IMG/VR virus record: IMGVR_UViG_3300037247_000468
Span: 1-23,177 of that record
Strand: one strand, 5' to 3'
DNA length: 23,177 bases
Origin: a virus
In this document: positions 4,718 to 23,177 of the stretch, piece after piece
Position numbering within the stretch: the first letter of the stretch is position 1
Layout: every line of letters starts with the position of its first letter
The notes under the pieces: model-generated
The model's input: only the letters and a program-made list of their open reading frames with translations
The model's database searches: none
What the model was told of the DNA's origin: nothing
Program-made: the position numbers and the translations under genes

Positions 4718-6369
4718 CCGACCTCTCCGCCCTCACCCCGGAAAATCTTCGCGCTCTTTCGTCTGAAGATTTGGCCCGTGTAACCGGGAGTCTTCTGGAT
4801 CAGCGCGCTGAGATCAGGAAAGAGAGCCAAATACTCTATTATCGTCCCGCGTCGGAACTTGCCAAGCAGGTTCATCTATCCAAGGCCCACACGATAGGAA
4901 TTGGGGGAGGGAACCGATCCTCAAAGACCGAAACGGCTCTCGTGGAAGCGATAGCCTGCGCGACGGGTGTTTTCCCGCTCGATTTTCAGGCTGAGTTTCG
5001 CGAGAAGTTCAAGGGACCTTTGAATATTCGTCTTTGCATCGAATCTCTGACCACGGTTCTTCATCCGATCATGCTACCGAAGCTGATGTGGTGGCGCTGG
5101 ACCGGCATCGATCAACCAGGGGGGATTCGGGGTCATTACGGCTGGGTTCCGCGAATGTGTCTCAAACAGGGCAATTGGGACAAATCGTGGTCTGAGAAGC
5201 TTCGCACGCTGACATTTCTCTGTCGTGATCCTGACGATCCGGACCGGGTTCTTGGTGAAAGCCAGCTACAGGTACTTTCCTACGATCAGGACCCGACCGA
5301 TTACGCTTCCGGTACGTTTGATATCGTGATTCACGACGAGCCGCCGCCGTTTTCTATTTGGAGAGAGAACCAGGCTCGTGTTTTGGACGTGGCCGGTAGA
5401 ATCTTTCTGTCCATGACCTGGCCTGACGATCCGGCCATACCTGTAGATTGGATTTACGACGAGGTTTATGAATTAGGCCAGTCTGGGCCGATGAAAGACC
5501 CCGGGATAGACTGGTTCGAGCTACAGACCCTCGATAACGTCCATATCGACGCAAAATCAATCCTGGACAAGACCAAGAGTTGGACCGAGGAAACTAAGAA
5601 GGTCCGTCTCAAAGGACAGCCCCTACGTTTCTCCAACCGTATCCATCCACTTTTCACCGACACCGAACAAGTTTGGTGTTTTACTTGTGGGAAGAACTGT
5701 ATGCCTGACGAAGGTGTGTGTGGCTGTGAGAGAAAATCGGTTGAGATTGTCGAATATCAGCATATTCAAGATTTTGACATCGGAGAGAGCTGGCCTGTTG
5801 TCTTTCTCCTCGATCCCCATCCTCGCAAGCCTCATATGTGCATGTGGGTGGCGGTCGATCCTAGCGATGATTACTGGGTCGTTCAGGAGGGTGCGGTTGA
5901 AGGTGATGCGAGCGATTTGAAGGCTTACGTCGATGGCATAGAGGAGGGGATGAACTTCAATGTCAGGCTGAGATTGATGGACCCAAACATGGGCCGTTCT
6001 CCCTCGGGAGCCAGAAGGGAAGTCACCTGGCAGGACGAATTCGAGGTCGTGGGGTTGAGGATGGACCTGGCGGACGATTCCGATATCGGAAGAAAGCGGG
6101 TCAACCAGTATCTTAAGCCTGATGAAAACACCCGCCGGCCGAGGCTGATGATTCATTCTCGTTGCCGGGGGACGGCACAACACCTCAAGAGATTCGTTTG
6201 GGATGATTTCAAGCGTTCTGCAAATCGTGACGTTAAACAGCAGCCGAAGGACAAGTATTCCGACTACCCGGCACTGCTGAAGTATTTCCTGAACTATCTG
6301 CCTACCTTCAGGACGCTTTACACCGGAGCACCGGTCATTGTACGCGGCAACAGACGAGGGGCTTATTGA
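4714..6369 (+). CDS. terL: Terminase large subunit
   Basis: This 551-residue DNA-packaging motor starts at GTG (GTGA overlap with the previous stop; GGAGGAGG just upstream). The ATPase domain has Walker A GGGNRSSKT (64-72), Walker B FDIVIHDE (202-209, Glu as catalytic base) and a coupling-like FLSMTWP (231-237). The nuclease half has candidate metal-binding acids D367 (VVFLLDP), D423 (RLRLMDPNMG) and D517 (YSDYPALLKYF), as in RNase H-like terminase nucleases. Between the two lies a Cys cluster, C322-x2-C325-x3-C329-x6-C336-x-C338, suggesting a zinc-binding insertion. The length is normal for TerL. It acts at the portal vertex of the procapsid. Confidence 0.95.
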   Translation: MTDLSALTPENLRALSSEDLARVTGSLLDQRAEIRKESQILYYRPASELAKQVHLSKAHTIGIGGGNRSSKTETALVEAIACATGVFPLDFQAEFREKFKGPLNIRLCIESLTTVLHPIMLPKLMWWRWTGIDQPGGIRGHYGWVPRMCLKQGNWDKSWSEKLRTLTFLCRDPDDPDRVLGESQLQVLSYDQDPTDYASGTFDIVIHDEPPPFSIWRENQARVLDVAGRIFLSMTWPDDPAIPVDWIYDEVYELGQSGPMKDPGIDWFELQTLDNVHIDAKSILDKTKSWTEETKKVRLKGQPLRFSNRIHPLFTDTEQVWCFTCGKNCMPDEGVCGCERKSVEIVEYQHIQDFDIGESWPVVFLLDPHPRKPHMCMWVAVDPSDDYWVVQEGAVEGDASDLKAYVDGIEEGMNFNVRLRLMDPNMGRSPSGARREVTWQDEFEVVGLRMDLADDSDIGRKRVNQYLKPDENTRRPRLMIHSRCRGTAQHLKRFVWDDFKRSANRDVKQQPKDKYSDYPALLKYFLNYLPTFRTLYTGAPVIVRGNRRGAY

Positions 6370-9636: not shown

Positions 9637-10377
9637 ATGGCAGGTGAAAACCTCAATCTGGACCCCGACGAGACAGAGGGCAAAGGAGAGCCAATGGTGC
9701 CGAGAAGCGCTTTGGAAGCCGAACGGCACAAACGGCAAGCGGCGGAAAACTCGGCAGCGGAGTATCGCGGTCAGGTTCAAGGTATGACTGTCGCAAAGCC
9801 GGAAACCGATTCTCCCAAGGAGTTCAGTACTGCCGAGCTACGCCAGGCCGTGGACGAAGGCAAGCTTACGGAAGACGAGTCCGAGGCCATTAAGGCGCGG
9901 CAGATCGAAAAGCGGGTTACGGCGAAAGTGACCGAGGAAGTTGAAACCAAGCTCGCCGCACAAAATCGCGGCGAGCGGGTCTCTGCCGAGATCGGACGTT
10001 ACAAGGAAGCTATCCCCGATTTGACGGATACCGATTCGGCAGCGTTCAAGAAAGTTCAGACCGAGTTTTCGTATTTGACCCAGCAGGGTTACGACGCCAA
10101 CGACCCTCGGACGGAGTTGATTGCGGTTCGCGGGGCGTTCGGGGACATTGACCGGCTACAGAAGATCGAGCCGGGCAAGCGCGAGACTCATCAAGAGACC
10201 GGTGGGCATCCTGATCCCAATACGGAATCTGTCGATGGGGCACCGAAGGATATGTCGGCCGACACCAAGCGGTATTACCAGGATCAGATCAACCAGGGCA
10301 CGGTGATCGATTGGGAAGCTGCTAAGGCTGAGTGGTCTTACAAACCCAAGCACTCGCCGCGAGCGAGGTCCGCTTGA
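9637..10377 (+). CDS. Scaffolding protein
   Basis: This 246-residue protein starts MAGENLNLDPDETEGKGEPM with GAAGGAGG about 6 bases upstream of the ATG. It is highly charged and helical with coiled-coil character (SALEAERHKRQAAE; VTAKVTEEVETKLAAQNRGE) and has a basic C-terminus (KPKHSPRARSA). It lies between portal and major capsid, the classic scaffold position. Scaffold proteins guide capsid assembly and leave before or during packaging; a basic C-terminus often binds the coat protein. Called from composition and context. Confidence 0.75.
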   Translation: MAGENLNLDPDETEGKGEPMVPRSALEAERHKRQAAENSAAEYRGQVQGMTVAKPETDSPKEFSTAELRQAVDEGKLTEDESEAIKARQIEKRVTAKVTEEVETKLAAQNRGERVSAEIGRYKEAIPDLTDTDSAAFKKVQTEFSYLTQQGYDANDPRTELIAVRGAFGDIDRLQKIEPGKRETHQETGGHPDPNTESVDGAPKDMSADTKRYYQDQINQGTVIDWEAAKAEWSYKPKHSPRARSA

Positions 10378-10699: not shown

Positions 10700-11419
10700 A
10701 TGGATTACGCATACAATTTGCAGGGCGGTGTGACCCCTGTGGCGATGAAATTTCAGGTTAATGAGACTCATGCAAACCCAGGTGTTGTAACCACGGCTCC
10801 GGGCGCCGGAGAAGGTGGAGTGGCACTATCAACTGCCGGTGCTACATCTTTTCCCGATGCGCTTGGCGTGACACTCGACACGGCCACGGCAGTCACCGCG
10901 CAGCAGACGGACGGCACGTCCACGGAACGGAAGGTCACGGTGATTATCAGCCCCGATGCGGTCTATCGCTCTCTGATATCTGGCGGGGCTACGGAAGGCA
11001 CGGCGCTGGTCGAGTACACCGTTTCGACCGCGATGACCGATGGTCTTACCCTGACCGACACGTCCGTGACCTGGACAAATCCGGCCTGGGACGAAGGTTC
11101 GGTTTTCTTCACCTCCGGAGTTAACAAGGGCCAGCACCGCAAGGTTATCACCACTGGCGGGTCGAATGTCGCGACGTTCAAGAACGCCTTCGATTTCGAC
11201 AGCGCCGTCAACGATACCTACGTCAAGCTGCCGTGGTGGTTTGCCGATGCTACGTCCAAGACCCTACAGCCCACAACCAACCTCTATCAGGCAAATGCCT
11301 TGATTGCCGTTGGTACGGGCGGCGCCGTGAAAATCATCGACATGGAATTGGACGAAAACGATACGAACGGCATGTACGTCCTCTTCACTCTCGACGATCA
11401 TGCGCTAAACCACGCATAA
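10700..11419 (+). CDS. Putative capsid decoration protein
   Basis: This 239-residue beta-rich protein starts MDYAYNLQGGVTPVAMKFQV; AAAGGAG lies about 10 bases before the ATG. It is rich in Thr, Ala, Gly and Val and ends MYVLFTLDDHALNHA. Position immediately upstream of the major capsid gene, size and composition fit a head decoration/stabilisation protein that sits on the outer capsid. No specific family motif was recognised, so this is largely a contextual call. Confidence 0.6.
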   Translation: MDYAYNLQGGVTPVAMKFQVNETHANPGVVTTAPGAGEGGVALSTAGATSFPDALGVTLDTATAVTAQQTDGTSTERKVTVIISPDAVYRSLISGGATEGTALVEYTVSTAMTDGLTLTDTSVTWTNPAWDEGSVFFTSGVNKGQHRKVITTGGSNVATFKNAFDFDSAVNDTYVKLPWWFADATSKTLQPTTNLYQANALIAVGTGGAVKIIDMELDENDTNGMYVLFTLDDHALNHA

Positions 11420-11450: not shown

Positions 11451-12371
11451 ATGGGTGTTCCTCACACAACGGGCGCTTTCGGCGATCTTCTGGACATCCG
11501 TTTCCAGAAAATCTTCGACGACAATTTCCCGCAGCTTAACGACATGCTGCCGGAGTTGTTCAATTTCGAGCCCAACAACGGTCGGATCGACATGCGGTTC
11601 AGCCAGGTCTCAGGCTATAGCGATATCCCCGAGTTCGACGGTTCGGTGACGTATCAGGCTGCCACGCAGGGCTATGACACGACCATCACGCCTATCGAGT
11701 TCGCCAGCGGAATCCAGGTCGAGCGGCGTCTATTCGACACCGACCAGTACTCGATCATGAACCAGCAACCGGCAGGGCTTGCGCGTGCGTCACAGCGCAC
11801 TCGGCAGAAGCATGGTGCGCGGCAGTTCAACAATGCCTTCTCGGTCGATACCAAATTCTACAATAATACCGAACAGGTGGCGCTGTGTTCGGACAGCCAT
11901 ACGACGACCGTGCAGACCGCCTCGACCGCTAGTGGTTTCGATAATCTCGTGACGACTGCGCTTTCAGCAACCGCATTGGCGACGGCGCGCATTCAGATGC
12001 GTGGCTTCCGGGATGCCGCTGCTAACCGCGGTGATATCGAACCGGATGAGATTCTGTTCCCGCCCGATCTTTACGAGGTGGCTTTCGAGATTAACGCCTC
12101 GATGGGCAAGGTCGATACGGCTGAGAACAATCGCAACGTCCACTTCGGCCGCTATACCATGAAGGAATGGAACTACCTGACGGACCCCAATAACTGGTTT
12201 CTGATGGATAGCGCGCTTCGGGGCGAAAGCCTCAAGTGGTTCGATTCCGTGCCGACTGAGTTCGCCCAAGCGGAGGACCTCGATACGATAATTGCGAAAT
12301 GGCGCCTCTACGAAGTTTACGGCAATGGCCACTTAGATTGGCGCTGGATACTAGGAGCCCAGGTTTCCTAG
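11451..12371 (+). CDS. Major capsid protein (HK97 fold, Mu gpT-like)
   Basis: This 306-residue protein starts MGVPHTTGAFGDLLDIRFQK; GGAAGGA lies about 10 bases upstream of the ATG. The N-terminal half has the V-E-R-R-L-F-D-T-D-Q-Y helix and RQKHGARQFNNAF that I associate with gpT-type coats. The C-terminal half contains PPDLYEVAFEIN, WNYLTDPNNWFLMDS and the strand WRLYEVYGNGHLDWRWILGA. It assembles the icosahedral shell. It follows scaffold and decoration-like genes as expected. It ends at a TAG. Confidence 0.85.
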   Translation: MGVPHTTGAFGDLLDIRFQKIFDDNFPQLNDMLPELFNFEPNNGRIDMRFSQVSGYSDIPEFDGSVTYQAATQGYDTTITPIEFASGIQVERRLFDTDQYSIMNQQPAGLARASQRTRQKHGARQFNNAFSVDTKFYNNTEQVALCSDSHTTTVQTASTASGFDNLVTTALSATALATARIQMRGFRDAAANRGDIEPDEILFPPDLYEVAFEINASMGKVDTAENNRNVHFGRYTMKEWNYLTDPNNWFLMDSALRGESLKWFDSVPTEFAQAEDLDTIIAKWRLYEVYGNGHLDWRWILGAQVS

Positions 12372-12385
12372 CACGGAGAGAAACG

Positions 12386-12607
12386 ATGCCACATCCGATG
12401 ACTGACGCTGAATTCAAGGCGGAGGGTGACTTGGACGCTTTGATGCGCGCCCAGGAAATCGACCGCGACCCCGCACGGCAGGTTGCTGCCAAGAGGCTTG
12501 CGGAGGAGCGTAAGGATGAGGCCGCACGAGTTGTTGAGTCTCTGCCCGGCCGGTCCCCGCGCACTTTCAACGGTGCGGTCAGAAACAGCAGAATGGTGCC
12601 AACGTGA
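12386..12607 (+). CDS. 73-aa helical protein after the capsid gene
   Basis: The protein starts MPHPMTDAEFKAEGDLDALM; GGAGAG lies 6-8 bases before the ATG. It is a charged helix (ALMRAQEIDRDPARQVAAKR) ending in a basic tail. An upstream-extended frame overlaps the capsid gene and is rejected. No family was recognised; possibly a virion or assembly accessory protein. Confidence 0.65.
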   Translation: MPHPMTDAEFKAEGDLDALMRAQEIDRDPARQVAAKRLAEERKDEAARVVESLPGRSPRTFNGAVRNSRMVPT

Positions 12608-12825
12608 TGGACGCTACTTACACCGTCACCTTCAAGGGCTTCCCGGACAAGTTCGTCGCTCTTCTTGACCGTTGGATCGAGGAAGACATTGCCGCTTATC
12701 CGAAGCGCATGGCCATGGATAGCGCGACCGTTGTGAAGCAGCCACATGCTGAAGCTGCGCGACAGTTCCGCAAGGAATTGAAGAGTGCTGCCAAGAAGGG
12801 GAAGAAAAATGCCCAATCCAGATAG
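12607..12825 (+). CDS. 72-aa basic protein of unknown function
   Basis: The protein starts MDATYTVTFKGFPDKFVALL. It overlaps the previous stop by TGATG; a GTG three bases earlier is an alternative start. Helices with Lys/Arg enrichment lead to a C-terminus KELKSAAKKGKKNAQSR. The first 40 residues (K-G-F-P-D-K-F-V-A-L-L-D-R-W) suggest a small folded domain. No function recognised. Confidence 0.6.
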   Translation: MDATYTVTFKGFPDKFVALLDRWIEEDIAAYPKRMAMDSATVVKQPHAEAARQFRKELKSAAKKGKKNAQSR

Positions 12826-13009
12826 TGGCAATCTCGATAGCCAGCTTGGCAACGCCCCGCCGAAGTTCAAGCGCAAGGCAGGCGGCAAGGCCCCGCCGGT
12901 CAATGTGAAGCCGGCCAACTGGGGTGGTTTGCCGGGGCCGACACAGCCGAGGGATCGTTCGGCCGGTGTGAAGAAATTGAAGACCCATGCGATGAGCAAG
13001 GGTCTGTAG
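12809..13009 (+). CDS. 66-aa basic, proline-rich protein
   Basis: The protein starts MPNPDSGNLDSQLGNAPPKF and continues with Lys, Pro and Gly (RKAGGKAPPVNVKPANWGGL). It is probably disordered. AAGGGGAAG lies just upstream of the ATG, and it overlaps the preceding gene by 17 bases. Basic disordered proteins can bind DNA or the inner capsid surface, but nothing here proves it. It is followed by a structured leader. Confidence 0.6.
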   Translation: MPNPDSGNLDSQLGNAPPKFKRKAGGKAPPVNVKPANWGGLPGPTQPRDRSAGVKKLKTHAMSKGL

Positions 13010-13075
13010 CGGGTAATTTCGGGTGCGATTCCCGTTGGCAGCTACGTGAAATCCGTAGGTGTCCCTAGACAGGAG
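13007..13075 (+). promoter_or_regulatory. Structured leader of the beta-helix gene, T-arm-like hairpin plus two stems
   Basis: Three hairpins are stacked before the ribosome-binding site: CGGG-TGCGATT-CCCG (13020-13034), which resembles a tRNA T-arm with a 7-base loop; CTACG-TGAAATC-CGTAG (13042-13058); and TGTC-CCTA-GACA (13060-13071), which abuts AGGAG. Parts match the element at 3507-3550: the T-arm-like core, then GTTTGC or GTTGGC, then GCTACGCGAAAGC or GCTACGTGAAATC. The last stem sits where it could control ribosome access to the 13083 gene. Confidence 0.45.
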
Positions 13076-13082
13076 AAGATAG

Positions 13083-14108
13083 ATGACTTTGACACCCTTC
13101 CCACATGGAATTTCAAGTTTCGGCAGCCCGGTCATGGGCGGCAGTGGAACCTTGCCTGTCATGGGCGGGCGCATTGCGGCCACGGGCGATGCCAAGGTGT
13201 ATTTTGTCGATCCGGCCAACGGTTCGGACGGCAATTTGGGGCTTTCCCCCGATAAGGCGCTCAATACTGTTTCTGCCGCCTATGCCAAGACGATAGATAA
13301 GTCCGGCGACACAATTTATCTGCTGAACGACGGCAACACTACCGGTTCCAGCGTCGAGAGCGCCACCATTACGTGGTCGAACGACAATGTGCATCTCGTT
13401 GGTCTCTGTGCCCCGACTCTGTTGAGCCAGCGGTCTCGGATCGTCTGGCAGGGCGCCGACGTTGTAACACCGCTGATTAACGTCACCGGCAATGGCAATC
13501 TCTTTTCCAACGTTTCGATCATCGAAGAAACAACCGAGAATGCCGTTGCCAGCGTCGGCGTAAGAGTCTCGGGTCAGCGTAATGTTTTCCATAATGTTGC
13601 CATCATGAGCATGGTTAATACGAACACGGGAGACGAGGCCGATTCAAGCTGCCTGCTTCTCAGCGGCGGTTCGGAGAACACTTTCCGGGGGTGCTATATC
13701 GGCGTGGATACGTCGGCCCGAAGCGCGTCCAATGCCAGCGTGGAATGCGAGAGCGCCGCAACGCGGAACGCTTTCTACGATTGCTTTTTTGCGATGTTCG
13801 CGGATGCGGCATCGCCGGTGTTTCTGGAAGCCAGCACCAGCAGCGACATCGACCGTTGGTTGCTTTTCGAGCGCTGCAAGTTCATCAATCCGGATACCAT
13901 AACCGCCTGTTCGACCATCACCCAAGCGTTCAATGTGAAGCTCGGCTCCGACTTGGGCGGCGTGGTCTTGGTCTTCGATTGCTTCTTCAACGGCATGTCG
14001 AACATCGTCAGCGCCGACAACACGGCAGTCAGAGTCATGGGGGCCACGTCGGCAAACGCTACTGCCGTACAGCGAATGATGGTCGCCACCGCCGCCGACT
14101 TCAATTAA
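13083..14108 (+). CDS. Right-handed beta-helix (pectate-lyase-like) virion protein
   Basis: This 341-residue protein starts MTLTPFPHGISSFGSPVMGG; AGGAG lies about 7 bases upstream of the ATG. Residues 39-70 (VYFVDPANGSDGNLGLSPDK then ALNTVSAAYAK) match the common N-terminal cap of parallel beta-helix proteins. Repeated rungs follow: NLFSNVSI (139-146), NVFHNVAI (167-174), NTFRGCYI (199-206), NAFYDCFF (229-236), LLFERCKF (260-267), LVFDCFF (296-302). Such folds bind or cleave polysaccharide in phage tailspikes, though no catalytic residues were identified. A partial duplicate of its 3' end follows the stop. Confidence 0.8.
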   Translation: MTLTPFPHGISSFGSPVMGGSGTLPVMGGRIAATGDAKVYFVDPANGSDGNLGLSPDKALNTVSAAYAKTIDKSGDTIYLLNDGNTTGSSVESATITWSNDNVHLVGLCAPTLLSQRSRIVWQGADVVTPLINVTGNGNLFSNVSIIEETTENAVASVGVRVSGQRNVFHNVAIMSMVNTNTGDEADSSCLLLSGGSENTFRGCYIGVDTSARSASNASVECESAATRNAFYDCFFAMFADAASPVFLEASTSSDIDRWLLFERCKFINPDTITACSTITQAFNVKLGSDLGGVVLVFDCFFNGMSNIVSADNTAVRVMGATSANATAVQRMMVATAADFN

Positions 14109-14200
14109 GTCTAATGCTTCTTCAACGGGGGCGCACAACGGAAGGCTCTGCCGTACAGCGAATGATGCTCGCAACCGCCACTGATAAGACTACGGTGTAA
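14109..14200 (+). pseudogene. Partial duplicate of the 3' end of the beta-helix gene
   Basis: Two words of the gene recur after its stop: TGCTTCTTCAACGG (13980-13993 and 14115-14128) and TGCCGTACAGCGAATGATG (14063-14081 and 14149-14167). The interval is 69 bases in the gene but only 20 in the duplicate, so the reading frame is not kept. In another frame the second word still encodes S-A-V-Q-R-M-M-L-A-T-A-T-D before a TAA, paralleling T-A-V-Q-R-M-M-V-A-T-A-A-D of the gene. This is a decayed duplication remnant. Confidence 0.65.
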
Positions 14201-14209
14201 GAGGATAAA

Positions 14210-15040
14210 ATGACCGAACTTTCCACTGAGAACGTTCTTCATCCTCGCCAGGTTTCCGAACTCAACGAGGACAAGTCGAGACTTGAGAAGATGCTTGGTT
14301 CGGCGCCATACATTCGGAGCCAGCTTGTTGACGGCGGGGCGAATGTTGTCAAGCAGATTCAAGGCATTGACAAGATGCTCGAACAAGCCCCCAAGCCCAT
14401 CCCGAAGGAACAGCTTGACGCTGCGGTAAATACCGAGAAGTTGCTTCGCGAGTCTTGGTTAATTGGCATGCCGACACAGGCCGAGATGCGCCGTAATCCT
14501 TCGGGGGCGGTTGACAAGAACCGATCCTGGTCGGACCGCAACAAAACCGGCATATTGCAGTGGAAGCAGCTTCGCCGCCGCCTGCATGCGAGTGGTGTTT
14601 CGAAGCATCGCCTGGCTGATGAGGGTGATATCTCCAATATCGAGATATATCGTCCCGAGGGCGGGCCGGGTGAGCTAAACATGCATAACGAGCAGATACC
14701 AGGAAAGGTTATGAGCCTTCCCCCGGCGGGCGCGGGGCCTGCCACGGTGATGTCAGACGAGCAAGCCGAGATGCTCCAGAGCATCAACCCCGAGCTTCAC
14801 GGCAAGATGGCGTTGCTCAGCAACGATCAGCGTGCCGAGGTGTTGGGGCTGGTGGACAATTTGATTGGTGGCGTCAAGTCGAAACCCAAAAAGCCCAAAG
14901 GTTCCTATAATGAAAGCCCGATTGCGCTTTTGAGGACAGAGGCCAAGTCTCTGGGCATCAATGTCTTCCAGAAGGGCCGGGAACAGCTTCGCACTGAAAT
15001 AGCGGAGCGGAGCGGCACTCTCGTCGCCAAGGAGGGGTGA
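14210..15040 (+). CDS. 276-aa helical protein of unknown function
   Basis: The protein starts MTELSTENVLHPRQVSELNE; AGAGGAT lies a few bases before the ATG. It is hydrophilic and mainly helical, with a basic middle (NKTGILQWKQLRRRLHASGV) and a C-terminal helical segment like a small HeH or SAP-type domain (I-A-L-L-R-T-E-A-K-S-L-G-I-N-V-F-Q-K-G-R-E-Q-L). The latter comparison is tentative. The linker KSKPKKPKGS is basic. It sits between two carbohydrate-fold genes, so a virion-associated role is plausible. Confidence 0.65.
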   Translation: MTELSTENVLHPRQVSELNEDKSRLEKMLGSAPYIRSQLVDGGANVVKQIQGIDKMLEQAPKPIPKEQLDAAVNTEKLLRESWLIGMPTQAEMRRNPSGAVDKNRSWSDRNKTGILQWKQLRRRLHASGVSKHRLADEGDISNIEIYRPEGGPGELNMHNEQIPGKVMSLPPAGAGPATVMSDEQAEMLQSINPELHGKMALLSNDQRAEVLGLVDNLIGGVKSKPKKPKGSYNESPIALLRTEAKSLGINVFQKGREQLRTEIAERSGTLVAKEG

Positions 15041-16068
15041 TGGCGTATCCATTCATTTTTGAGGAAAATTTTGAATTAGGTACTAAGGGTGATTTTGGCG
15101 CAGAGGCCGACACTGGTACGAAATTGGACTTCCCCCACTACTCTACGTTGGCAGCCATCCCCGGTATGGCGCTTCCCTATCGTGGCGCCTATTGTATGAG
15201 GATCGATTGCGGCGATGCCAACGACCACACGCTATTCGAGGAAGACCTGGATATTGCCGATACAGACACGGCGTGGGTCCGGTTCTATCTCTACATTCAT
15301 CCGGACTTTGCGGCCACATCCAACGATATTTTCAACATTTTCGAGTGGCAGAGCACGTCCAATGTGGTAGAGGCATGTATCAGCTTGCAGATCACGGCGG
15401 CGACGGATTTGGTGGATATCGCAATCGCCGATGGCACCGAAGCGTCGTCTGGCTTTACAAATATATCCAAGGGAGTTTGGCATCTTGTTGAGGCGTTGTT
15501 CACAGTCGATGTGGCGGCCGGCAGCGACGGCGTTCTTACTCTATTTGTGGACACATCGCAACTCCAGACTGTAACTGGTCATAACCAGTCGCTTGCGATC
15601 ACCCATGGTGTATTCGGAACGCAGAACACTGCGTCTACCACGACAGGCGTGTTGCTTTTCGATCAGTTCGTTTTCGACGACCTCCAGGTTTATGGTTTCC
15701 AGCGCCGTTACCCCGAAACCATTCTCTGCACCAAGAGCCAGCATGTTTTTGTCGGCAATGGTCGAATCGATAATGTCACGCTGCTTTCCGGTGACACGAC
15801 GGTCAATAATCAAGTCAAGATTTATAATACCGACACGGCCGATACGAACGATGCATCTCACATTGTTGCTGAACTTAGGAATACGGCCGTGAAGGAAATT
15901 GTTGACCCTGCCGGGATGCCGGTTCGCGTGACGAGAGGGGCGTATGTCCAGATTACAGGCACTCCAGAGGACGGTGGCCCGCGAGCTCTTGTTCAAATTG
16001 GCGCCGCACAGGGTTGGGGTTCAGAAGGTGCGATCAGGAATTATGCGATCAAGAGGGGGGTAATATGA
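15040..16068 (+). CDS. LamG/concanavalin-like virion protein
   Basis: This 342-residue beta-rich protein starts MAYPFIFEENFELGTKGDFG at an ATG overlapping the previous stop; GGAGGGG is just upstream. The opening (F-E-E-N-F-E-L-G ... Y-R-G-A-Y-C-M-R-I-D), the middle W-V-R-F-Y-L-Y-I-H and V-W-H-L-V-E-A-L-F-T-V, and L-F-D-Q-F-V-F-D-D-L-Q-V-Y resemble concanavalin/LamG-type jelly rolls used in glycan binding. Residues after about 225 form a second beta domain. Fold is inferred from pattern only. It is likely a decoration or receptor-binding protein. Confidence 0.65.
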   Translation: MAYPFIFEENFELGTKGDFGAEADTGTKLDFPHYSTLAAIPGMALPYRGAYCMRIDCGDANDHTLFEEDLDIADTDTAWVRFYLYIHPDFAATSNDIFNIFEWQSTSNVVEACISLQITAATDLVDIAIADGTEASSGFTNISKGVWHLVEALFTVDVAAGSDGVLTLFVDTSQLQTVTGHNQSLAITHGVFGTQNTASTTTGVLLFDQFVFDDLQVYGFQRRYPETILCTKSQHVFVGNGRIDNVTLLSGDTTVNNQVKIYNTDTADTNDASHIVAELRNTAVKEIVDPAGMPVRVTRGAYVQITGTPEDGGPRALVQIGAAQGWGSEGAIRNYAIKRGVI

Positions 16069-16595
16069 CCAAGGTCAACCTCTATGCGCCTTTCGCGGGG
16101 GTCAAGGACGGGCTCACTCTTTGTACGCTTCTCAGGGATGCGAAGAAGCTAGAGGAGGTTATGGGTGTCATTGAGATACTCGACGGGCGGATAAGGGAGA
16201 TCAATGAGGCTATCGAGATTCTTGGCAAGGCTTCCAAGATGGACGCTCTTTTGCGTGAGGCAAAGCAGAAGGATCAAGATGCGCTGTTTGTGCTAAATGA
16301 AGCCAATGAAAACGCCGGGCAAATCCAGAAAGATGTCAAGTCCTGGGCGGATGATCTCCGCGAGAAGATTGTCGAGCGCGAGGATGCTGTGGCGGCGGGC
16401 GAGAAAGCCCTTGCCGAGGACAAGTCCCGGTTCAACGCCGATGCTGCTGCTTGGCAGATCGCGAAGGCCAAATGCGAAGCAGAACTTGCCGATCAGACGC
16501 AGCTCGCGGCTCGCAAGCTTGATGAAGCCGTGGGACTCAAGAAGCGTTATGAAACAGCCCTTGCTGTCACGAAGGCTGGAGTGGCGGCAGCCTAA
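16065..16595 (+). CDS. Coiled-coil protein of unknown function
   Basis: This 176-residue protein starts MTKVNLYAPFAGVKDGLTLC by ATGA overlap with the previous gene. From about residue 25 it is almost continuously helical and heptad-like (EKIVEREDAVAAGEKALAED; CEAELADQTQLAARKLDEAV). Coiled coils of this sort serve as trimeric stalks or chaperones. It lies inside the putative virion-appendage cassette, which supports a structural role, but no family was recognised. Confidence 0.65.
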   Translation: MTKVNLYAPFAGVKDGLTLCTLLRDAKKLEEVMGVIEILDGRIREINEAIEILGKASKMDALLREAKQKDQDALFVLNEANENAGQIQKDVKSWADDLREKIVEREDAVAAGEKALAEDKSRFNADAAAWQIAKAKCEAELADQTQLAARKLDEAVGLKKRYETALAVTKAGVAAA

Positions 16596-16642
16596 TGGCT
16601 GACGCCATGGTGGCGCGCATGAAGGCGGCAACGGTGGCCTGA
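16595..16642 (+). CDS. 15-aa linking ORF
   Basis: The ORF MADAMVARMKAATVA begins by TAATG overlap with the stop of the upstream gene and ends by TGATG overlap with the start of the downstream gene. It would keep terminating ribosomes moving through the 46-base gap by re-initiation. Whether the peptide itself matters is unknown; chance cannot be excluded. Confidence 0.3.
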   Translation: MADAMVARMKAATVA

Positions 16643-17022
16643 TGCCCAATTCCTGGATCACCAAAAGTGACGGGACGGAAATCCGCCTCGCACACCCGCT
16701 CAACCGTTCGGGCATGGCCGCGAGCGATACCGAGCGCAGCTACGATTTGCTGAATGACCCGCGCTTCCAGGACGCGGACAAGACCAAGACCGCTCTGGTG
16801 CTCAAGACGCTGTTGCAGGAGGACCTCACGACCCGGACGCTGGTACGGGATTTGCCCGACGACGAATGGACCAAGACAACTGATCCCGTGACCAAGCATG
16901 GTGAGGCGATGTTTTGGGAGGGCAATGGTGCCAAGCGTGTGGTGGTGTCCCGTCCGACCATTGTTGAGCGGTTTGAGTGGGACGGCCAGGACTGGGACCA
17001 CAAACTGCGGCGGGCGCGGTAG
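16642..17022 (+). CDS. 126-aa protein of unknown function
   Basis: The protein starts MPNSWITKSDGTEIRLAHPL; its ATG overlaps the stop of the 15-codon ORF. The C-terminal half (E-A-M-F-W-E-G-N-G-A-K-R-V-V-V-S-R-P-T-I-V) is beta-rich. No family was recognised. Codon use and GC content match the rest of the head operon and contrast with the AT-rich gene that follows. Confidence 0.65.
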   Translation: MPNSWITKSDGTEIRLAHPLNRSGMAASDTERSYDLLNDPRFQDADKTKTALVLKTLLQEDLTTRTLVRDLPDDEWTKTTDPVTKHGEAMFWEGNGAKRVVVSRPTIVERFEWDGQDWDHKLRRAR

Positions 17023-18174
17023 ATGGCGCTAACTTTGAACAATCTCACCGGATTTGAAACGGCCGGTGCAGAAGAAGCGTTGAGCGTATCTAATTCACCG
17101 ACTTTTCCTACGACTGATCCAAGATCAGGTAATAGACATCTTTCAATTGCGTCCACGCAAGAATATAAATTTCCTTGGGTTGCAGGCGGAGTCACAGATC
17201 AGGGCAATGATTACATTGTAGGTATTGCTATTAAATTATCTTCGACTTCTGCTGACTCATCGGGATTTATAAAGGTTCGTGACGATGTGGCGGGAAGATT
17301 ATGGCAACTGGAGGTAGCCAGCTCTAATAAGTTAGCTTTGACCGATCAAGGTGGTGTTGCTGTTGTAATAACGAGCACAGATTCTTTAACTACAACACAG
17401 TATCATTATATAGAAATATATTTTCAGCATAGTGATCCAGGCAATGCTGAAATGTTTATCGATGGTGTGAGTCAAGGAACGGCTTCAAGCGTAGACTTTA
17501 GTAACGGCAACAGCATGAATGCAAGTGCTGCTTTAGAAATGGTGCATGACGGTTCAAATACTTTTCTTGTGGACGATATTTATATTCTCTCCGGTGCCAC
17601 CGCAGCCTCCGACCGCTACGGCGATTTTGCAGTAAAAGCCTACCAGTCCACCGATGTAGGTGCAACCGACCAGGGCGACACGTTGGCGGACGGCACCTGG
17701 GCGCTGGTAAGCGAGACGCCGGGCAACGAAGGTACCAGCAACGATGCACAGTATCAAGACACCGGCAATCTGACCGGTAGTACCATTACGGACGGGGGCG
17801 ACAGGCCAGGGCCATCAGGCGATAGCGATGTGACTGGCGCGACCATCAAGGGCGCGAAGTTCATTGGTAATTTCAAGCGCACCACAGGTGGCGGCAGAAC
17901 ACACACTCTCTTGCATGGCAATAATGTCGATGATGTAACGGCCACGGCTGATTTAGGGCTAACCGTTGATTACATCATTTATGAGGTGTTGTCAGAAGCG
18001 GCTGGTATTGTCCCGACTGAATCCGAATTCTTCCAGCAGGGCTTTTCCAAGTCTGCCACTGCAGGCCAGGACATATTCTGCGGCGATCAGTGGGCCATGC
18101 TGGGATATGTGCCGGCGGCGGTCGCTGCTATCCCCATACCTAGTTTAGTAATGGCACCCTACATTCCGGCATGA
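17023..18174 (+). CDS. Chimeric LamG-like virion protein with AT-rich 5' half
   Basis: This 383-residue protein starts MALTLNNLTGFETAGAEEAL immediately after the previous TAG, with no clear Shine-Dalgarno. Residues to about 190 resemble a LamG/concanavalin jelly roll (Y-H-Y-I-E-I-Y-F ... M-F-I-D-G-V-S-Q-G, then T-F-L-V-D-D-I-Y-I-L-S-G), a pattern common in phage structural proteins. The C-terminal half is a different beta domain and ends with a hydrophobic segment (YVPAAVAAIPIPSLVMAPYI). Base composition changes sharply near 17585: 17 of 60 G+C at 17401-17460 against 39 of 60 at 17641-17700. This suggests module exchange by recombination. Confidence 0.7.
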   Translation: MALTLNNLTGFETAGAEEALSVSNSPTFPTTDPRSGNRHLSIASTQEYKFPWVAGGVTDQGNDYIVGIAIKLSSTSADSSGFIKVRDDVAGRLWQLEVASSNKLALTDQGGVAVVITSTDSLTTTQYHYIEIYFQHSDPGNAEMFIDGVSQGTASSVDFSNGNSMNASAALEMVHDGSNTFLVDDIYILSGATAASDRYGDFAVKAYQSTDVGATDQGDTLADGTWALVSETPGNEGTSNDAQYQDTGNLTGSTITDGGDRPGPSGDSDVTGATIKGAKFIGNFKRTTGGGRTHTLLHGNNVDDVTATADLGLTVDYIIYEVLSEAAGIVPTESEFFQQGFSKSATAGQDIFCGDQWAMLGYVPAAVAAIPIPSLVMAPYIPA

Positions 18175-18187
18175 AAGGAACACACTA

Positions 18188-18640
18188 ATGTCACGATATA
18201 GCGCAGGCGCTCGAACGACCGCTGGCACGTCGTTGCAGCCGATGATGTCGATATGGTCGGCTGCTGCTTCAACGGGGACGCTCCGCGAGGTTGGCTGTTT
18301 CAATACGACGGCTACCGCGGTTGAGATTTTCCTCACTCGTTTGACAGCGGTAGGGACCGCGGGGGCACTTCTAACCGAGTCACCCTATAATCCAAAAGGG
18401 CCGCTACCCCTTTGTACGGTAAACACAACGCATAGTGGCAATGCCACGCTTGGAGATGATTTAGGTTATCGGGCGGTGCTTGGGGCGGCTGTTGGTTCTG
18501 GGGTTATCTGGACCTTCGGAGACACTGGGATAGTGATTGGATTGCCGGATGCCCTCGAGCTCGTCACGAACGGCATCGGGATCATCCTTGAGACCGGCAC
18601 TGGTCAGATTTGCCAAACCTACTTTATTTGGGATGAGTAG
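18188..18640 (+). CDS. 150-aa beta-rich protein, likely virion component
   Basis: The protein starts MSRYSAGARTTAGTSLQPMM; AAAGGAA lies about 8 bases upstream of the ATG. It consists mostly of short hydrophobic strands (R-E-V-G-C-F-N-T-T-A-T-A-V-E-I-F-L-T-R-L), ending G-Q-I-C-Q-T-Y-F-I-W-D-E. This pattern, with a loop of charge-neutral strands, is similar to that of the 22357 gene product and to small phage structural proteins. The catalytic or binding role is unknown. It overlaps the HNH gene. Confidence 0.65.
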   Translation: MSRYSAGARTTAGTSLQPMMSIWSAAASTGTLREVGCFNTTATAVEIFLTRLTAVGTAGALLTESPYNPKGPLPLCTVNTTHSGNATLGDDLGYRAVLGAAVGSGVIWTFGDTGIVIGLPDALELVTNGIGIILETGTGQICQTYFIWDE

Positions 18641-19058
18641 CAAGCCATTGAAAACGCACAATCTTTTGGCCTACAGGAAGGGCTGCCGCTGTTCAGAGTG
18701 CCGCGCAGCGAATGCTGCTTCCGCCCGCAAATACAAAGCCCAAAACCCCGAGCGCTACAAGGCGAATAAACGCGCCTGGGACCAGGCTCTCCGTAAAGAA
18801 GTTCTCGATCATTACGGAGGCAAGTGCGTTTGTTGCGGAGAGCGCGAGTTGGCGTTTTTGTCTCTTGACCACAAGAATGGTGGAGGGAATAAGCACCGCC
18901 AAGAGCTTGGGCTTCGCGGATCGGGTATCTGGGCATGGACAAAGCGTGAGGGGTATCCGGATATGTTTCAGGTCCTCTGCCACAATTGTAATCAAGCGCG
19001 AGGATATTATGGTCGATGTCCTCATGAAGATTACCCGGCGCTCTACGCTGTAGCATGA
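18633..19058 (+). CDS. Freestanding HNH endonuclease
   Basis: This 141-residue protein starts MSSKPLKTHNLLAYRKGCRC and overlaps the preceding stop by 8 bases. The HNH core shows C65-x-C67-C68, D79-H80 in FLSLDHKNGGGNKH, and C116-H117-N118-C119-N120 in VLCHNCNQARGYYG. An N-terminal C18-x-C20-x2-C23 cluster probably binds another zinc. HNH enzymes use one metal to nick or cut DNA; freestanding ones in phages often behave as homing endonucleases. It is inserted among virion genes, so a mobile origin is likely. The neighbouring genes remain joined by short overlaps. Confidence 0.85.
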   Translation: MSSKPLKTHNLLAYRKGCRCSECRAANAASARKYKAQNPERYKANKRAWDQALRKEVLDHYGGKCVCCGERELAFLSLDHKNGGGNKHRQELGLRGSGIWAWTKREGYPDMFQVLCHNCNQARGYYGRCPHEDYPALYAVA

Positions 19059-19348
19059 GCGCACTGACGCGATATCCGGTTCCGCAGGCTACCGCGGCAG
19101 GTAAGGTCGATGGTCCCCGGCTGCTCTTCCGCCTGGAGCCAACGATTGTTCCGGAGCCTGTACTTGCGTTCCTGCGACCCCTTCGTGGCCTGGAGGTCAT
19201 TGAGGCGGGCGCGGTTGATGATCCTCGGCTTTACTTCCGTCTGGAGGCTGCGGTGGTTCCTGGGCGCATTATGTCTAGTCTTGCCGCCCATGGGGGCTTG
19301 GCTGGCCTTGGTGGTATTGCAGGACAAGGCGGGGGCTTGGCGGGATAG
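19055..19348 (+). CDS. 97-aa protein with internal duplication
   Basis: The protein starts MSALTRYPVPQATAAGKVDG by ATGA overlap with the HNH gene. Two repeats are visible: A-A-G-K-V-D-G-P-R-L-L-F-R-L-E-P (14-29) and E-A-G-A-V-D-D-P-R-L-Y-F-R-L-E-A (50-65). At the DNA level, 19097-19152 and 19205-19260 are diverged copies of the same 56 bases. The C-terminus is Gly/Ala-rich. Likely a small structural or appendage protein; no family recognised. Confidence 0.6.
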   Translation: MSALTRYPVPQATAAGKVDGPRLLFRLEPTIVPEPVLAFLRPLRGLEVIEAGAVDDPRLYFRLEAAVVPGRIMSSLAAHGGLAGLGGIAGQGGGLAG

Positions 19349-20914
19349 ATGTATTTAGGTGATTTCAAGGAAGACGGCGACGTTTTCTTCAAATTCACAA
19401 CCCGAGCTTTTGCCACGGGCATCCCTACGGTCTTGGCCAACACGCCTGTCTTGTCGGTCTTTATCGACGAAAATACGACCGGGAAGACGACCGCAGAGAC
19501 TTATTTCGATCTGGACGTGTCACTTGGCAGCATCGTTGGCTACAATAATGTACGGATTGATTTGAGTGGCGATGCGTTTTTTGCCACGGGCGGTGACTAT
19601 TCAGTTGTTATCACCACAGGCACGGTCGATAGCGTATCTGTGGTTGGTGAGGTAGTTGGTACATTTAGCATCGAGAACCGTTCGATGGGCCAGCCGGTAG
19701 GCTCAACTCTTTCGGATGATATTGCGGCGATTAAGTCTGAGACGGCGCTTATCGTGGCCGACACCAGCGAAACACAGGGTAAACTCCCCACCAACAAGTT
19801 CATGGGGAGTTCTGACGGAGCCGACGACGACGGAAACATAAATTCCATCCTGGCTGGTACGGTGACAAACGCACAGGGCACCGATGTTGCCACTGACGTT
19901 GCAGCCATGATTGATGTTAATAACAGAGTGGACGTTGGCGCATTTCTGGGTACGGCTGTTGCGGCAGCAACGGCTAGTGGGGAAGTCAACGCCAACGTGA
20001 CGGAACTTGGCGGTGTGGTGCAGTCCCTGACGGACCTCAAGGATTTTGCCGATGCTGGCTATGATCCAGGGACGAACAAGATCACGGGTTGTGTGCTGAC
20101 AGATACCGTTACCACAGTTACCAATCAACTCTCGGCGGCGACCATCGCGAACCAGGTGTGGGACACGGATGCAACAGGCCGTCAATCAGCCGGCTCATTC
20201 GGTCAAGCCATTGGCGATCCAGGCGCGAATGCGGAGACAATGTACGATGCCGTTATAACTGACGCAGCGGGTACAAATGTTGCTGTAGATGTTGTTGCCG
20301 TGAAGGCAGAGACCGTAAATATCCTAGCTGACACAGACGACATTGGTGTAGCCGGTGCTGGCCTGACCGATCTCGGTGGCATGTCTGACGGCATGAAGAC
20401 CGAGGTGGAGAGTGAAGTCAATGATGGCTTGGTGGCACTTGGCCTAGATCATCTCCTCGGAGCCTCCGTGACGGGCACCGATATCACCGACAACAGCATC
20501 ATCGCAAAGCTAGTTTCGAAAGAGGCCACGGCGGACTGGGACGACTTTGTAAACACCACGGATAGCCTCCAGGCCATACGCGATCGTGGCGACGCGGAGT
20601 GGATTACAGCAACAGGCTTCTCAACACATAATGCGGCGGCTGTCTGGTCGGTCGCTACACGGGTTCTGACGGCCAACACCAATCTGAATGATATCAGTGT
20701 CTCGGACATCCTAACAACACAAATGACAGAGGCATACGCGGCCAACGGTGTGGCTCCAACTCTGGCACAGTGCATGTTTGCTATTCATCAGTTTAAGATG
20801 CAGCATGGCATATCGGGTACGGCTTGGACGGTGCGGAAATTGGACAACACCACCACGGCATTCGTTGTCACTCTCGACGATGCGACGAACCCAACCGACG
20901 CCAAGAGGGTCTGA
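19349..20914 (+). CDS. Fibre-like structural protein
   Basis: This 521-residue protein starts MYLGDFKEDGDVFFKFTTRA directly after the previous stop. The N-terminal beta domain (F-F-K-F-T-T-R-A-F-A-T-G-I-P-T-V-L; G-G-D-Y-S-V-V-I-T-T-G; G-T-F-S-I-E-N-R) is followed by a repetitive helical middle (DDIAAIKSETALIVADT; VAVDVVAVKAETVNILADT). The C-terminal domain contains Y-A-A-N-G-V-A-P-T-L-A-Q and T-V-R-K-L-D-N-T-T-T-A-F. I recognise this domain pattern from many phage structural and fibre proteins in environmental sequences, without a firm family name. It is probably a trimeric appendage or receptor-binding protein. Confidence 0.7.
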   Translation: MYLGDFKEDGDVFFKFTTRAFATGIPTVLANTPVLSVFIDENTTGKTTAETYFDLDVSLGSIVGYNNVRIDLSGDAFFATGGDYSVVITTGTVDSVSVVGEVVGTFSIENRSMGQPVGSTLSDDIAAIKSETALIVADTSETQGKLPTNKFMGSSDGADDDGNINSILAGTVTNAQGTDVATDVAAMIDVNNRVDVGAFLGTAVAAATASGEVNANVTELGGVVQSLTDLKDFADAGYDPGTNKITGCVLTDTVTTVTNQLSAATIANQVWDTDATGRQSAGSFGQAIGDPGANAETMYDAVITDAAGTNVAVDVVAVKAETVNILADTDDIGVAGAGLTDLGGMSDGMKTEVESEVNDGLVALGLDHLLGASVTGTDITDNSIIAKLVSKEATADWDDFVNTTDSLQAIRDRGDAEWITATGFSTHNAAAVWSVATRVLTANTNLNDISVSDILTTQMTEAYAANGVAPTLAQCMFAIHQFKMQHGISGTAWTVRKLDNTTTAFVVTLDDATNPTDAKRV

Positions 20915-21081
20915 TGGCAATTCGCACCGTTGTTACGCGAGGCTTCGGAAATGGGACCTTCAATGGCACCATCGCGCTAGTTGTCACTCGTGGCTATGGG
21001 GCGGGTGCTGCTGTGACCGCCGGAACCCGCCGTCAGCGCCAGATCAAGTCCTTGACCCGTTCACGCCGAAGACGTAGGTGA
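20914..21081 (+). CDS. 55-aa protein with Arg-rich tail
   Basis: The protein starts MAIRTVVTRGFGNGTFNGTI at an ATG overlapping the previous stop (TGATG). After V-V-T-R-G-Y it becomes strongly basic, ending TRRQRQIKSLTRSRRRRR. The repeat V-V-T-R-G-F/Y suggests a small duplicated motif. Such tails can bind nucleic acid or an acidic partner. No function is known. Confidence 0.6.
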   Translation: MAIRTVVTRGFGNGTFNGTIALVVTRGYGAGAAVTAGTRRQRQIKSLTRSRRRRR

Positions 21082-21085
21082 GAAA

Positions 21086-22357
21086 ATGGCTGTATTCACA
21101 CCAGAGGTGAGTCAGACGGTCCAAATTGAGGCCGCCAACAGCCATAGTATCGATGCCTCTGGCCGCTGGCGAGTCTCAAATCCCCAAACCCTCTTTGACT
21201 CGAAATTGACGGGGATAGACAATGCGCCGCTGTTTTGGGATGAGCAGCTTGAAAGCGGCACGATGGCGACGACCACGCCAACAGCCGACAAACCGTATAT
21301 CGATTTCACCAGCAGCGATACAACGGCGGGAAAGCGGACGCGACAGACCTTTCGCAGATTCAATTATCAGCCCGGCAAGGGCCAGCAGATAAAGATGACG
21401 GGCATTCTTGAACTTGCGAACGGGACCAAGACGGGATGCGAAAGGCGTATAGGGCCTCATGATGATAACAACGGGGCATTCTTTGAATCCGACGCTGGGG
21501 TGGTAGGCGTCACGCTGCGTTCCCACGATTCAGGATCAACAGTTGACACCACGGTTGCCCAAGCAAGCTGGAACCTCGACAACATGGACGGCGATAACGA
21601 CACCGAAAACCCGTCAGGGCTCACTCTTGACACTACAAAAGAGCAGATTTTCGTTATCGACTTTCAGTGGCTTTCCGCGGGTCCTGTTCGGTTTGGTTTG
21701 GAAATCGGTGCCGTTATTATTTACGTCCATGAAGTCACGGCTGCCAACGCGGCGACAATTCCGTGGGCCAGCACGCCTAATCTTCCGCTTCGATATCAGA
21801 TTATCACGACGACCGATTCCGGCGTTTGCTCGATGCGCTGCATTTGTTCGGTTGTTGTCTCGGAAGGTGGAACGGATGATCTCGGCATATTAAGGTATAA
21901 GTCAACGGCTGGTGCGGCGGTAACGACGGATGCGGAAAACTCACTATTCGCTGTTGTCGGGGTACGGTTGAAGTCAACGCATGTGGGCACAACCATCCGC
22001 ATGATCCGGGCCGCGCTGCAAATCCATACGGCTCTTGAATTTGCCGAATGGGTGGTTCTTTTCAACCCCACCGTGGCGGGCACTTTTACCTATAGCAATT
22101 TGGTGAACAGTTCGGTTCAGACGGCCCTGGGGGCTACTGCGAACACGGTGACGAACGGTATTGAAAACGCTGGGGGGTATGTCGAATCCGATAAAAAGGG
22201 CGGCGGGAGCATAGACGAGGCAGTGGGCAACGCACTGACCTTGGGGGTTGCGATCGACGGCACGACGCTTGATACAATTGTGCTTTGTGTCCGTCCTATC
22301 GGGGGTGTTTCGGCGATGGACATAGAGGGTTCGCTGACGTGGCGTGAGTTGATTTAA
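21086..22357 (+). CDS. Conserved virion structural protein
   Basis: This 423-residue protein starts MAVFTPEVSQTVQIEAANSH; AGGTGAG lies a few bases upstream of the ATG. The hallmarks are R-Q-T-F-R-R-F-N-Y-Q-P-G-K-G-Q, then F-V-I-D-F-Q-W-L-S-A-G-P-V-R-F-G and I-I-Y-V-H-E, followed by L-P-L-R-Y-Q-I. I recognise this pattern from structural proteins of many environmental and marine phages, usually annotated as hypothetical. It is likely exposed on the virion as a capsid or tail appendage. The precise role is unknown. Confidence 0.75.
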   Translation: MAVFTPEVSQTVQIEAANSHSIDASGRWRVSNPQTLFDSKLTGIDNAPLFWDEQLESGTMATTTPTADKPYIDFTSSDTTAGKRTRQTFRRFNYQPGKGQQIKMTGILELANGTKTGCERRIGPHDDNNGAFFESDAGVVGVTLRSHDSGSTVDTTVAQASWNLDNMDGDNDTENPSGLTLDTTKEQIFVIDFQWLSAGPVRFGLEIGAVIIYVHEVTAANAATIPWASTPNLPLRYQIITTTDSGVCSMRCICSVVVSEGGTDDLGILRYKSTAGAAVTTDAENSLFAVVGVRLKSTHVGTTIRMIRAALQIHTALEFAEWVVLFNPTVAGTFTYSNLVNSSVQTALGATANTVTNGIENAGGYVESDKKGGGSIDEAVGNALTLGVAIDGTTLDTIVLCVRPIGGVSAMDIEGSLTWRELI

Positions 22358-22695
22358 TGACGTTAATTGGGACGACACTTGGGCAGTTGAGGCCCGGAAA
22401 CACGACAGCGGTCAGCGTCTATTCGCCGCCGAGCACGACACAGGCGCAGATCACAAAGATTGTTGTCTGCAATACGGCTGCGACCACCCAGAAATTTCGC
22501 ATCTTTCTTGACCACGATGGCACAACTTATGACGAGACTACGGCGCTGTTCTGGGATATAGTGACGCCTACCGATACAACAGTTGAGATCGATGGAGATT
22601 GGTGGATGACTGACAGCGCGGGGAACCTTGCAGTGAGAACGGATAGCGCCAGTGCCTTCACGTTTACCGTTTTCGGAGCGGAGCATCAGGTATGA
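22357..22695 (+). CDS. 112-aa small beta virion protein
   Basis: The protein starts MTLIGTTLGQLRPGNTTAVS by TAATG overlap with the previous gene. It contains Y-S-P-P-S-T-T-Q-A-Q-I-T-K-I-V-V-C-N-T, then F-L-D-H-D-G-T-T-Y-D-E-T-T-A-L-F. This is a recurring pattern in small phage structural proteins that often accompany the gene type upstream. The fold is probably a small beta sandwich. No enzyme motif is seen. Confidence 0.7.
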   Translation: MTLIGTTLGQLRPGNTTAVSVYSPPSTTQAQITKIVVCNTAATTQKFRIFLDHDGTTYDETTALFWDIVTPTDTTVEIDGDWWMTDSAGNLAVRTDSASAFTFTVFGAEHQV

Positions 22696-23177
22696 GTAGC
22701 ACCAGTCAAGTCACTGATTTCAGCGATCTCTACACGGATTTGTCCAATCGTGTGAGAATCCAGACGGGTGTGACCGCGAGCGAAAATCAGGCCAAGCGCT
22801 ACATCAACACCGGCTTGCAAGACATGCACATAGGGTTTCAAGAGGGCTTCACTTGGGCGGAACGTGTAGGCGAACTGGTCACACAGCCTCAATATACCAC
22901 CGGGACACTTTCGATCGATCAGGGTTCTACCACTCTGACCGGCTCAAGCACGCTCTGGAATACTAACAATGCCTTTAACGTGGCAAATATGCGCGCTGGG
23001 GGTAAGATCGTGATCGACGGCGGGGTTGAGGTGTACGAGATAGCTTCTGTCTCCGGCGATACTGCGGCGGTGCTGACTGCTACGTATACTCAGTCGGATG
23101 CCAGCGCGGTTTCTTACGTCTATTTCGAGGACGAATACGCGCTCGATTCGGACTTCCTGCGGCCCGTGAGTTTCAAC
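22692..23177 (+). CDS. Head-tail adaptor, gp53-like, cut by window edge
   Basis: The first 162 residues are visible, starting MSSTSQVTDFSDLYTDLSNR by ATGA overlap. The opening D-F-S-D-L-Y-T-D-L-S-N-R-V-R-I-Q-T-G and K-R-Y-I-N-T-G-L-Q-D-M match what I know of the phage adaptor (gp53-like) family: a small helical domain, here followed by beta strands (G-T-L-S-I-D-Q-G-S-T-T-L-T-G). Adaptors dock the tail to the portal. The frame is still open at the last base, so the 3' end lies outside the window. The beta insertion after residue 65 could be a decoration domain. Confidence 0.7.
   Translation, partial: MSSTSQVTDFSDLYTDLSNRVRIQTGVTASENQAKRYINTGLQDMHIGFQEGFTWAERVGELVTQPQYTTGTLSIDQGSTTLTGSSTLWNTNNAFNVANMRAGGKIVIDGGVEVYEIASVSGDTAAVLTATYTQSDASAVSYVYFEDEYALDSDFLRPVSFN

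Follow-up and report, generated by a model that had tools for sequence, protein, structure and literature searches.

Conserved core genes and a variable slot form a probable host-recognition locus between the capsid and adaptor genes of an uncultured short-tailed phage lineage

The window analysed here, a 23,177-base fragment of an IMG/VR virus record that ends within the head-tail adaptor gene, carries a long interval between the MCP and adaptor genes which divides into a conserved core at 12809-16068, followed by a variable slot at 16065-22691. We consider it probable, at roughly 0.6, that this interval is the host-recognition (tailspike/fibre) locus of an uncultured SU10/HMO-2011-type short-tailed phage lineage and that it combines fixed with exchangeable parts. 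Most likely, the virus has here an exchangeable kit for host recognition, not a new shell-fixed device. Three proteins would make up the fixed part: a tailspike-like beta-helix protein, the helical p276 and a lectin/lyase-like protein of concanavalin fold. The exchangeable part would be the slot that precedes the adaptor gene and takes up or swaps structural gene pairs, a homing-type endonuclease and modules of fibre-like type. The core and slot proteins would be produced alongside the head proteins, take their places at or close to the adaptor once the neck is complete, and attach to or degrade polysaccharide of the host surface. Replacement of slot genes would then change the receptor, while p276 would help assembly or attachment. 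The genes of the interval and its flanks are as follows.

10700-11419, + strand: cem239, a 239-aa protein directly upstream of MCP, with clade-wide homologues upstream of MCP
11451-12371, + strand: MCP, left flank (PF25209, 5.3e-10); 85-89% identity with the three nearest contigs
12386-12825, + strand: two small proteins of 73 and 72 aa (gene call); homologues patchy, in some relatives
12809-13009, + strand: s66, 66-aa basic protein, core; 71 homologues in the locus set
13083-14108, + strand: beta-helix-type protein, 341 aa, core, tailspike-like; in 34/39 contigs
14210-15040, + strand: p276, all-helical, core; in 39/39 contigs; AlphaFold2 model with pLDDT 84 and 13 helices
15040-16068, + strand: lamG342, 342 aa, core; predicted concanavalin-A fold at residues ~4-222, followed by a beta domain at the C-terminus; in 30/39 contigs
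16065-16595, + strand: cc176, helical/coiled-coil-type by sequence, at the slot start; homologues in a minority of relatives
16642-17022, + strand: 126-aa protein, shared with the nearest relative only (75% identity to L002)
17023-18174, + strand: beta-rich protein of 383 aa, perhaps another LamG-like one; 62% identity to the L002 homologue
18188-18640, + strand: 150-aa beta-rich protein (gene call); no homologue in the locus set
18537-19058, + strand: HNH endonuclease ORF by sequence (phrog_2255, 3.6e-12; phrog_4234, 7.6e-10)
19055-19348, + strand: 97-aa Gly-rich ORF with a weak coding score
19349-20914, + strand: 521-aa modular fibre-like protein with an N-terminal beta domain, repeats and a conserved C-terminal tail
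20914-21081, + strand: 55-aa protein whose C-terminal RRQRQIKSLTRSRRRRR is common to a 272-aa gene in L002
21086-22357, + strand: 423-aa virion structural protein (phrog_1645, 4.2e-68)
22357-22695, + strand: 112-aa partner of the 423-aa protein; the homologous pair is also adjacent in HMO-2011 (5.9e-07)
22692-23177, + strand: head-tail adaptor, truncated where the contig stops; 65-70% identity to the full-length adaptors of L003 and G003

The head-gene operon of the window further includes a terminase (4714-6369), a portal (6664-8967) and a scaffold-type gene (9637-10377). The portal matches Pfam SU10_portal (PF23899, 9.1e-20, above the cut-off) and is thus of the SU10 type. A short HMM match to 'MCP' at 2077-2244 was dismissed as a small-sequence artefact. 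The adaptor of the clade gives no direct Pfam match; a profile built on it recovers and aligns with the adaptor of HMO-2011, which itself belongs to Pfam SU10_adaptor (PF24175, 9e-26). The truncated adaptor of the window was identified through its relatives, whose full-length homologues align with the HMO-2011 protein. The nozzle-type genes of the clade and of HMO-2011 are homologous as well, and a PDB profile search with the nozzle-type protein gave nothing useful. In our reading, the lineage has an SU10-type portal together with an SU10/HMO-2011-type pair of adaptor and nozzle ('stabilization') genes. HMO-2011 is a short-tailed phage, and neither tail tube, sheath nor tape measure genes were seen in 27-34 kb relatives, which are incomplete contigs.

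Relatives were collected by sequence and profile searches. The MCP search returned three near contigs (85-89% identity), profile searches with p276 and lamG342 returned 10 and 16 loci, respectively, and a profile built from 18 MCPs returned 261 relatives from IMG/VR. Eighty of the 261 were examined by gene calling and iterated profile search, and all gap and presence counts refer to the 39 non-redundant contigs, including the window, that hold both MCP and adaptor. The gene order s66 – beta-helix – p276 – lamG342 repeats across dozens of contigs and is therefore more than chance; it also recurs in contigs that were binned with bacterial genomes (Alphaproteobacteria, Gammaproteobacteria, Rhodospirillales), which hint at hosts among the Alpha- and Gammaproteobacteria. 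Presence declines from p276 (all 39) through the beta-helix protein (34) to lamG342 (30), and the absence of lamG342 from nine contigs and of the beta-helix protein from five speaks against the host-recognition reading. The gap between MCP and adaptor ranges from 1,994 to 10,321 bases with a median of 4,074, the window having the longest. From the last core gene to the adaptor, the distance is below 200 bases in 16 of the 39 contigs, i.e., the slot is empty, and reaches 6,624 bases in the window. One relative, L068, has minus-strand gene calls within the interval and is possibly misassembled or miscalled.

A sequence-only reading of this DNA had described a single glycan-recognition cassette between capsid and adaptor genes. 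The genes it listed are present in the order it gave, in the 10,321 bp between the end of MCP (11451-12371) and the adaptor start at 22692, but they fall into two units, and p276 (14210-15040) and the HNH ORF (18537-19058) had been omitted. Its premise, that adaptors usually come soon after the capsid gene, does not hold in this lineage, in which the gap is at least 2.0 kb (median 4.1). Since the two genes are never close here, their separation is characteristic of the lineage, and what stands out is only the top of its range. The start/stop overlaps to which it pointed do occur at many junctions, with overlaps or abutments at 9 of 16 from MCP on, but they are nothing special: the genes just upstream show them at 3 of 7 junctions, which indicates ordinary phage operon packing. 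Promoter and terminator scans gave counts near or below expectation (8 versus 7.7 and 12 versus 14.4, respectively), so that no internal boundary can be drawn from them.

The beta-helix protein of the core is tailspike-like. Its mean pairwise identity is 0.41-0.52 over residues 1-60 and drops to 0.20-0.24 past residue 150. A conserved start followed by a divergent body is the usual pattern of tailspikes and fibres, and the protein shows it, with the reservation that the conserved part may be a helix cap. Profile searches gave weak matches to the pectate lyase 3vmv and the tail fibre family phrog_32409. The gene also occurs in tandem right after the capsid genes, with four copies in L087 and two each in L070 and L077; we count these copies, together with the divergence between start and body, in favour of a recognition function. 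The same pattern of conserved start and variable end is seen in tfN, a second fibre gene downstream of the nozzle-type gene, and recognition may thus reside there instead.

The universal core protein p276 had no family match, and a PDB profile search gave nothing useful. Its predicted fold had no match in the PDB either; Foldseek and VIA returned generic helical matches only, with Z under 6, which are not interpretable. Judged by this model, p276 is not a glycan-recognition protein. Its presence throughout the clade suggests a structural role or one in assembly, and we regard it as a candidate assembly/attachment factor. In three relatives, glycosyltransferase-2-like genes lie between the beta-helix gene and p276 (L029:8136-9277, L037:8013-9244, L026:8375-9190), followed by hexapeptide acyltransferase-like genes in L029 (Hexapep, 4.6e-22) and, by sequence similarity only, in L037. 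Such genes could possibly serve glycan modification of the virion or the host surface.

The structure of lamG342, predicted from an alignment with 18 homologues, has a pLDDT of 86 and a pTM of 0.87. Residues 4-222 match the fungal PL20 endo-beta-1,4-glucuronan lyase 2zzj with a VIA Z score of 20.1 (195 aligned residues, rmsd 2.5), and the model has the concanavalin/jelly-roll fold of that family. The two proteins differ in that they share only 10% identity and lamG342 carries an extra C-terminal domain. Further VIA matches were 8q28 (Z 18.0), Cip1 (17.4), the alginate lyase 6kcw (16.4) and vAL-1 (16.2), and Foldseek matches had E values of 2e-8 to 7e-8. Matches to clostridial neurotoxin binding domains were set aside as general concanavalin-fold similarity, meaningless for function here. 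A PDB profile search gave nothing useful, and the match to Pfam PF14099 (Polysacc_lyase; 2.3e-5) scored 24.8 bits, below the gathering score of 29.9. Against BFVD, Foldseek found numerous phage proteins without names whose two-domain length is comparable, which is suggestive only; one of them comes from the structural gene cluster of an N4-like roseophage. The natural guess from the model is that lamG342 binds or cuts polysaccharide, although the fold alone shows no function. Two LamG-like proteins had been proposed from the sequence; the predicted fold backs lamG342, whereas the second, the 383-aa protein at 17023-18174, has no Pfam or PHROG family match.

Could lamG342 be an active polysaccharide lyase (PL20-like depolymerase) and not a binding protein? 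Its best structural neighbours are indeed lyases (2zzj, 6kcw and vAL-1), and the PF14099 match points the same way. However, concanavalin-fold lectins, CBM-like domains and toxin binding domains come out nearly equal (8q28 at Z 18.0, many at Z 14-15) and the Pfam lyase score stays under the gathering cut-off, which leaves the enzyme as an unlikely candidate on the modelled structure.

The sequence-only reading inferred recognition or adhesion and attached the apparatus to the capsid. The first inference agrees with the predicted concanavalin fold of lamG342, which comes near to that of polysaccharide lyases, with the conserved start and divergent body of the beta-helix protein and with the exchange of fibre-like genes in the slot; the second is unsupported, gene position being its sole argument. 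How poorly position predicts location is illustrated by the 423-aa phrog_1645 protein, a family annotated as virion structural in many phages. Homologues occur in 160 phage records, with the best matches in HMO-2011 and cyanophages. In HMO-2011 the gene lies upstream of the terminase, beside the 112-aa homologue; in DSL-LC04 it follows the nozzle-type gene, and cyanophage S-RIM8 has it close to neck genes. With locations this different, its gene position does not reveal its position in the virion. Its placement in podoviruses and cyanomyoviruses is likewise unrelated (window, 21086-22695; L009:4655-6252; L040:14282-16043; L039:5869-7179). A partner of 110-112 aa stands beside it in the window, in HMO-2011 and, by appearance, in DSL-LC04.

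Other observations bear on the neck. In the clade adaptor, an insert at residues ~68-143 matches N-terminal domains of tail fibres (phrog_6129, 2.1e-9; phrog_1980, 8.3e-7) and, in the PDB, side-fibre and distal-tail chains (0.003-0.004), matches that are modest and in this respect count against the neck. The HMO-2011 adaptor is without this insert of ~80 aa. In SU10, the long fibres are held by the adaptor, one domain of which is a fibre dock (PMC9509320). Among 23 contigs, lamG342 distances correlated with adaptor distances given MCP (partial r 0.60, p 0.001) and not with MCP distances given the adaptor (partial r 0.04, p 0.38); among 18 contigs, the correlation of lamG342 with the neighbouring p276 was 0.39 versus 0.55 with the adaptor. 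Several comparisons were made, and genome neighbourhood and a slow MCP may explain this covariation. The adaptor insert, the covariation and the kinship with short-tailed HMO-2011 weakly favour a neck location as judged from sequence, none of them being decisive.

The alternative that lamG342 and the beta-helix protein are capsid-surface decorations which bind environmental or host glycans appears doubtful to us. It draws on two points: the core is encoded right after MCP, and every locus found that includes the MCP region pairs it with this MCP family. Carbohydrate-binding capsid decorations are a known kind, such as Hoc, pb10, gp12 of SPP1 and gp8.5 of phi29 (PMC7602432). These surface proteins promote binding to cell-surface carbohydrates; in contrast to lamG342 with its predicted concanavalin fold, they have Ig-like, beta-tulip or collagen-like folds and a capsid location shown by structure. 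None of these folds was found in the two proteins that were folded, lamG342 being concanavalin-type and p276 all-helical, and searches for LamG or concanavalin-type capsid decorations found no described equivalent in the literature collection covered. Besides the unreliable guidance of gene position and the covariation of lamG342 with the adaptor, not MCP, a more natural cement candidate is encoded elsewhere. The separate, conserved cem239 gene had no Pfam or PHROG match and its PDB profile search gave nothing useful, but by position its product would be the likelier capsid cement or decoration protein. In Ralstonia phage GP4, the cement protein gp1 precedes the MCP gp2 (PMC9698820), a placement like that of cem239. 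With similarly little confidence, we consider a previously undescribed accessory ring or collar at a capsid vertex or the neck, in which p276, lamG342 and the beta-helix protein would present lectin-/lyase-like domains as a second recognition layer apart from the downstream tail fibres.

Evidence for an exchangeable host-recognition kit comes from the slot itself. The nearest relative has a terminase 91% and an MCP 89% identical to those of the window. The DNA of the two matches at 70% identity up to window position 18,139 and at 82% from 21,018 onward, the latter stretch taking in the beginning of the 423-aa gene. Between these positions no similarity was detectable at the DNA level, and the relative has other genes there. 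Judging by this comparison, shared flanks around a replaced middle are the result of an exchange of fibre-type genes inside a fixed frame. The family of the 521-aa protein recurs in the same slot in L067, L076, L086, L089, G003 and L038. The HNH ORF, which overlaps the end of the 150-aa gene, possibly encodes a homing endonuclease. An NCBIfam search gave no names for the cassette proteins, and p276, lamG342 and the 521-aa protein had no tblastn match in 50,697 phage records. Less likely still than the alternatives above is that the slot holds mostly non-virion, moron-like cargo and the beta-helix protein alone serves recognition: the slot varies from 0 to 6.6 kb and contains the HNH gene, and some relatives have glycosyltransferase-like and hexapeptide acyltransferase genes within the core, but most slot genes encode beta-rich, repetitive fibre-like proteins and phrog_1645 is annotated as a virion structural family in many phages.

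The host-recognition reading thus draws together the ordered core and variable slot of the 39 contigs, the SU10-type portal with HMO-2011-homologous adaptor and nozzle-type genes, the predicted polysaccharide lyase/lectin-type fold, the beta-helix pattern, the slot replacement with its HNH gene, and the adaptor insert with its covariation. Compared with known systems, Puniceispirillum podovirus HMO-2011 (GU557055) resembles the lineage in adaptor, nozzle-type gene and structural pair but has a P22-type coat protein, an adaptor gene one gene behind it, the pair upstream of the terminase and no beta-helix/p276/lamG342 core. Escherichia phage SU10 (Kuravirus) shares the portal family and the fibre-dock type of adaptor with fibres at the adaptor (PMC9509320); its order, however, is MCP gp9, adaptor gp11 and then the long fibres gp12-13, so that the fibre genes follow the adaptor gene instead of preceding it. 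The Manatee Spring contigs MW202796 and MW202601 have homologous MCP and portal and at least 5 kb of fibre-like genes between MCP and adaptor, but other fibre genes and neither p276 nor lamG342. As the block of MW202796 is already annotated as tail fibre/collar, a fibre block at this place is not new, and the proposed undescribed apparatus is reduced to families without names in an uncultured lineage; the new details are these gene families and the regular core-plus-slot architecture.

The 261 capsid relatives in IMG/VR define a large uncultured phage lineage, in which the fixed structure and the probable exchangeable recognition slot are now located, making its host range testable from sequence. 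Three unnamed virion-candidate families, one of them universal, have a placement in the particle that can be determined, and the locus illustrates how inferring virion position from gene position alone can mislead. Among the relatives, the adaptor gene of L018 (16126-17143) and the MCP gene of L027 (7169-8080) were each called as two pieces, reflecting a frameshift, an insertion or a sequencing error. Another member, L118 (JAJFLB010000053.1), lies near the end of a 290,789-base contig binned as Gammaproteobacteria; it may represent either a prophage or misbinning, which bears on the host.
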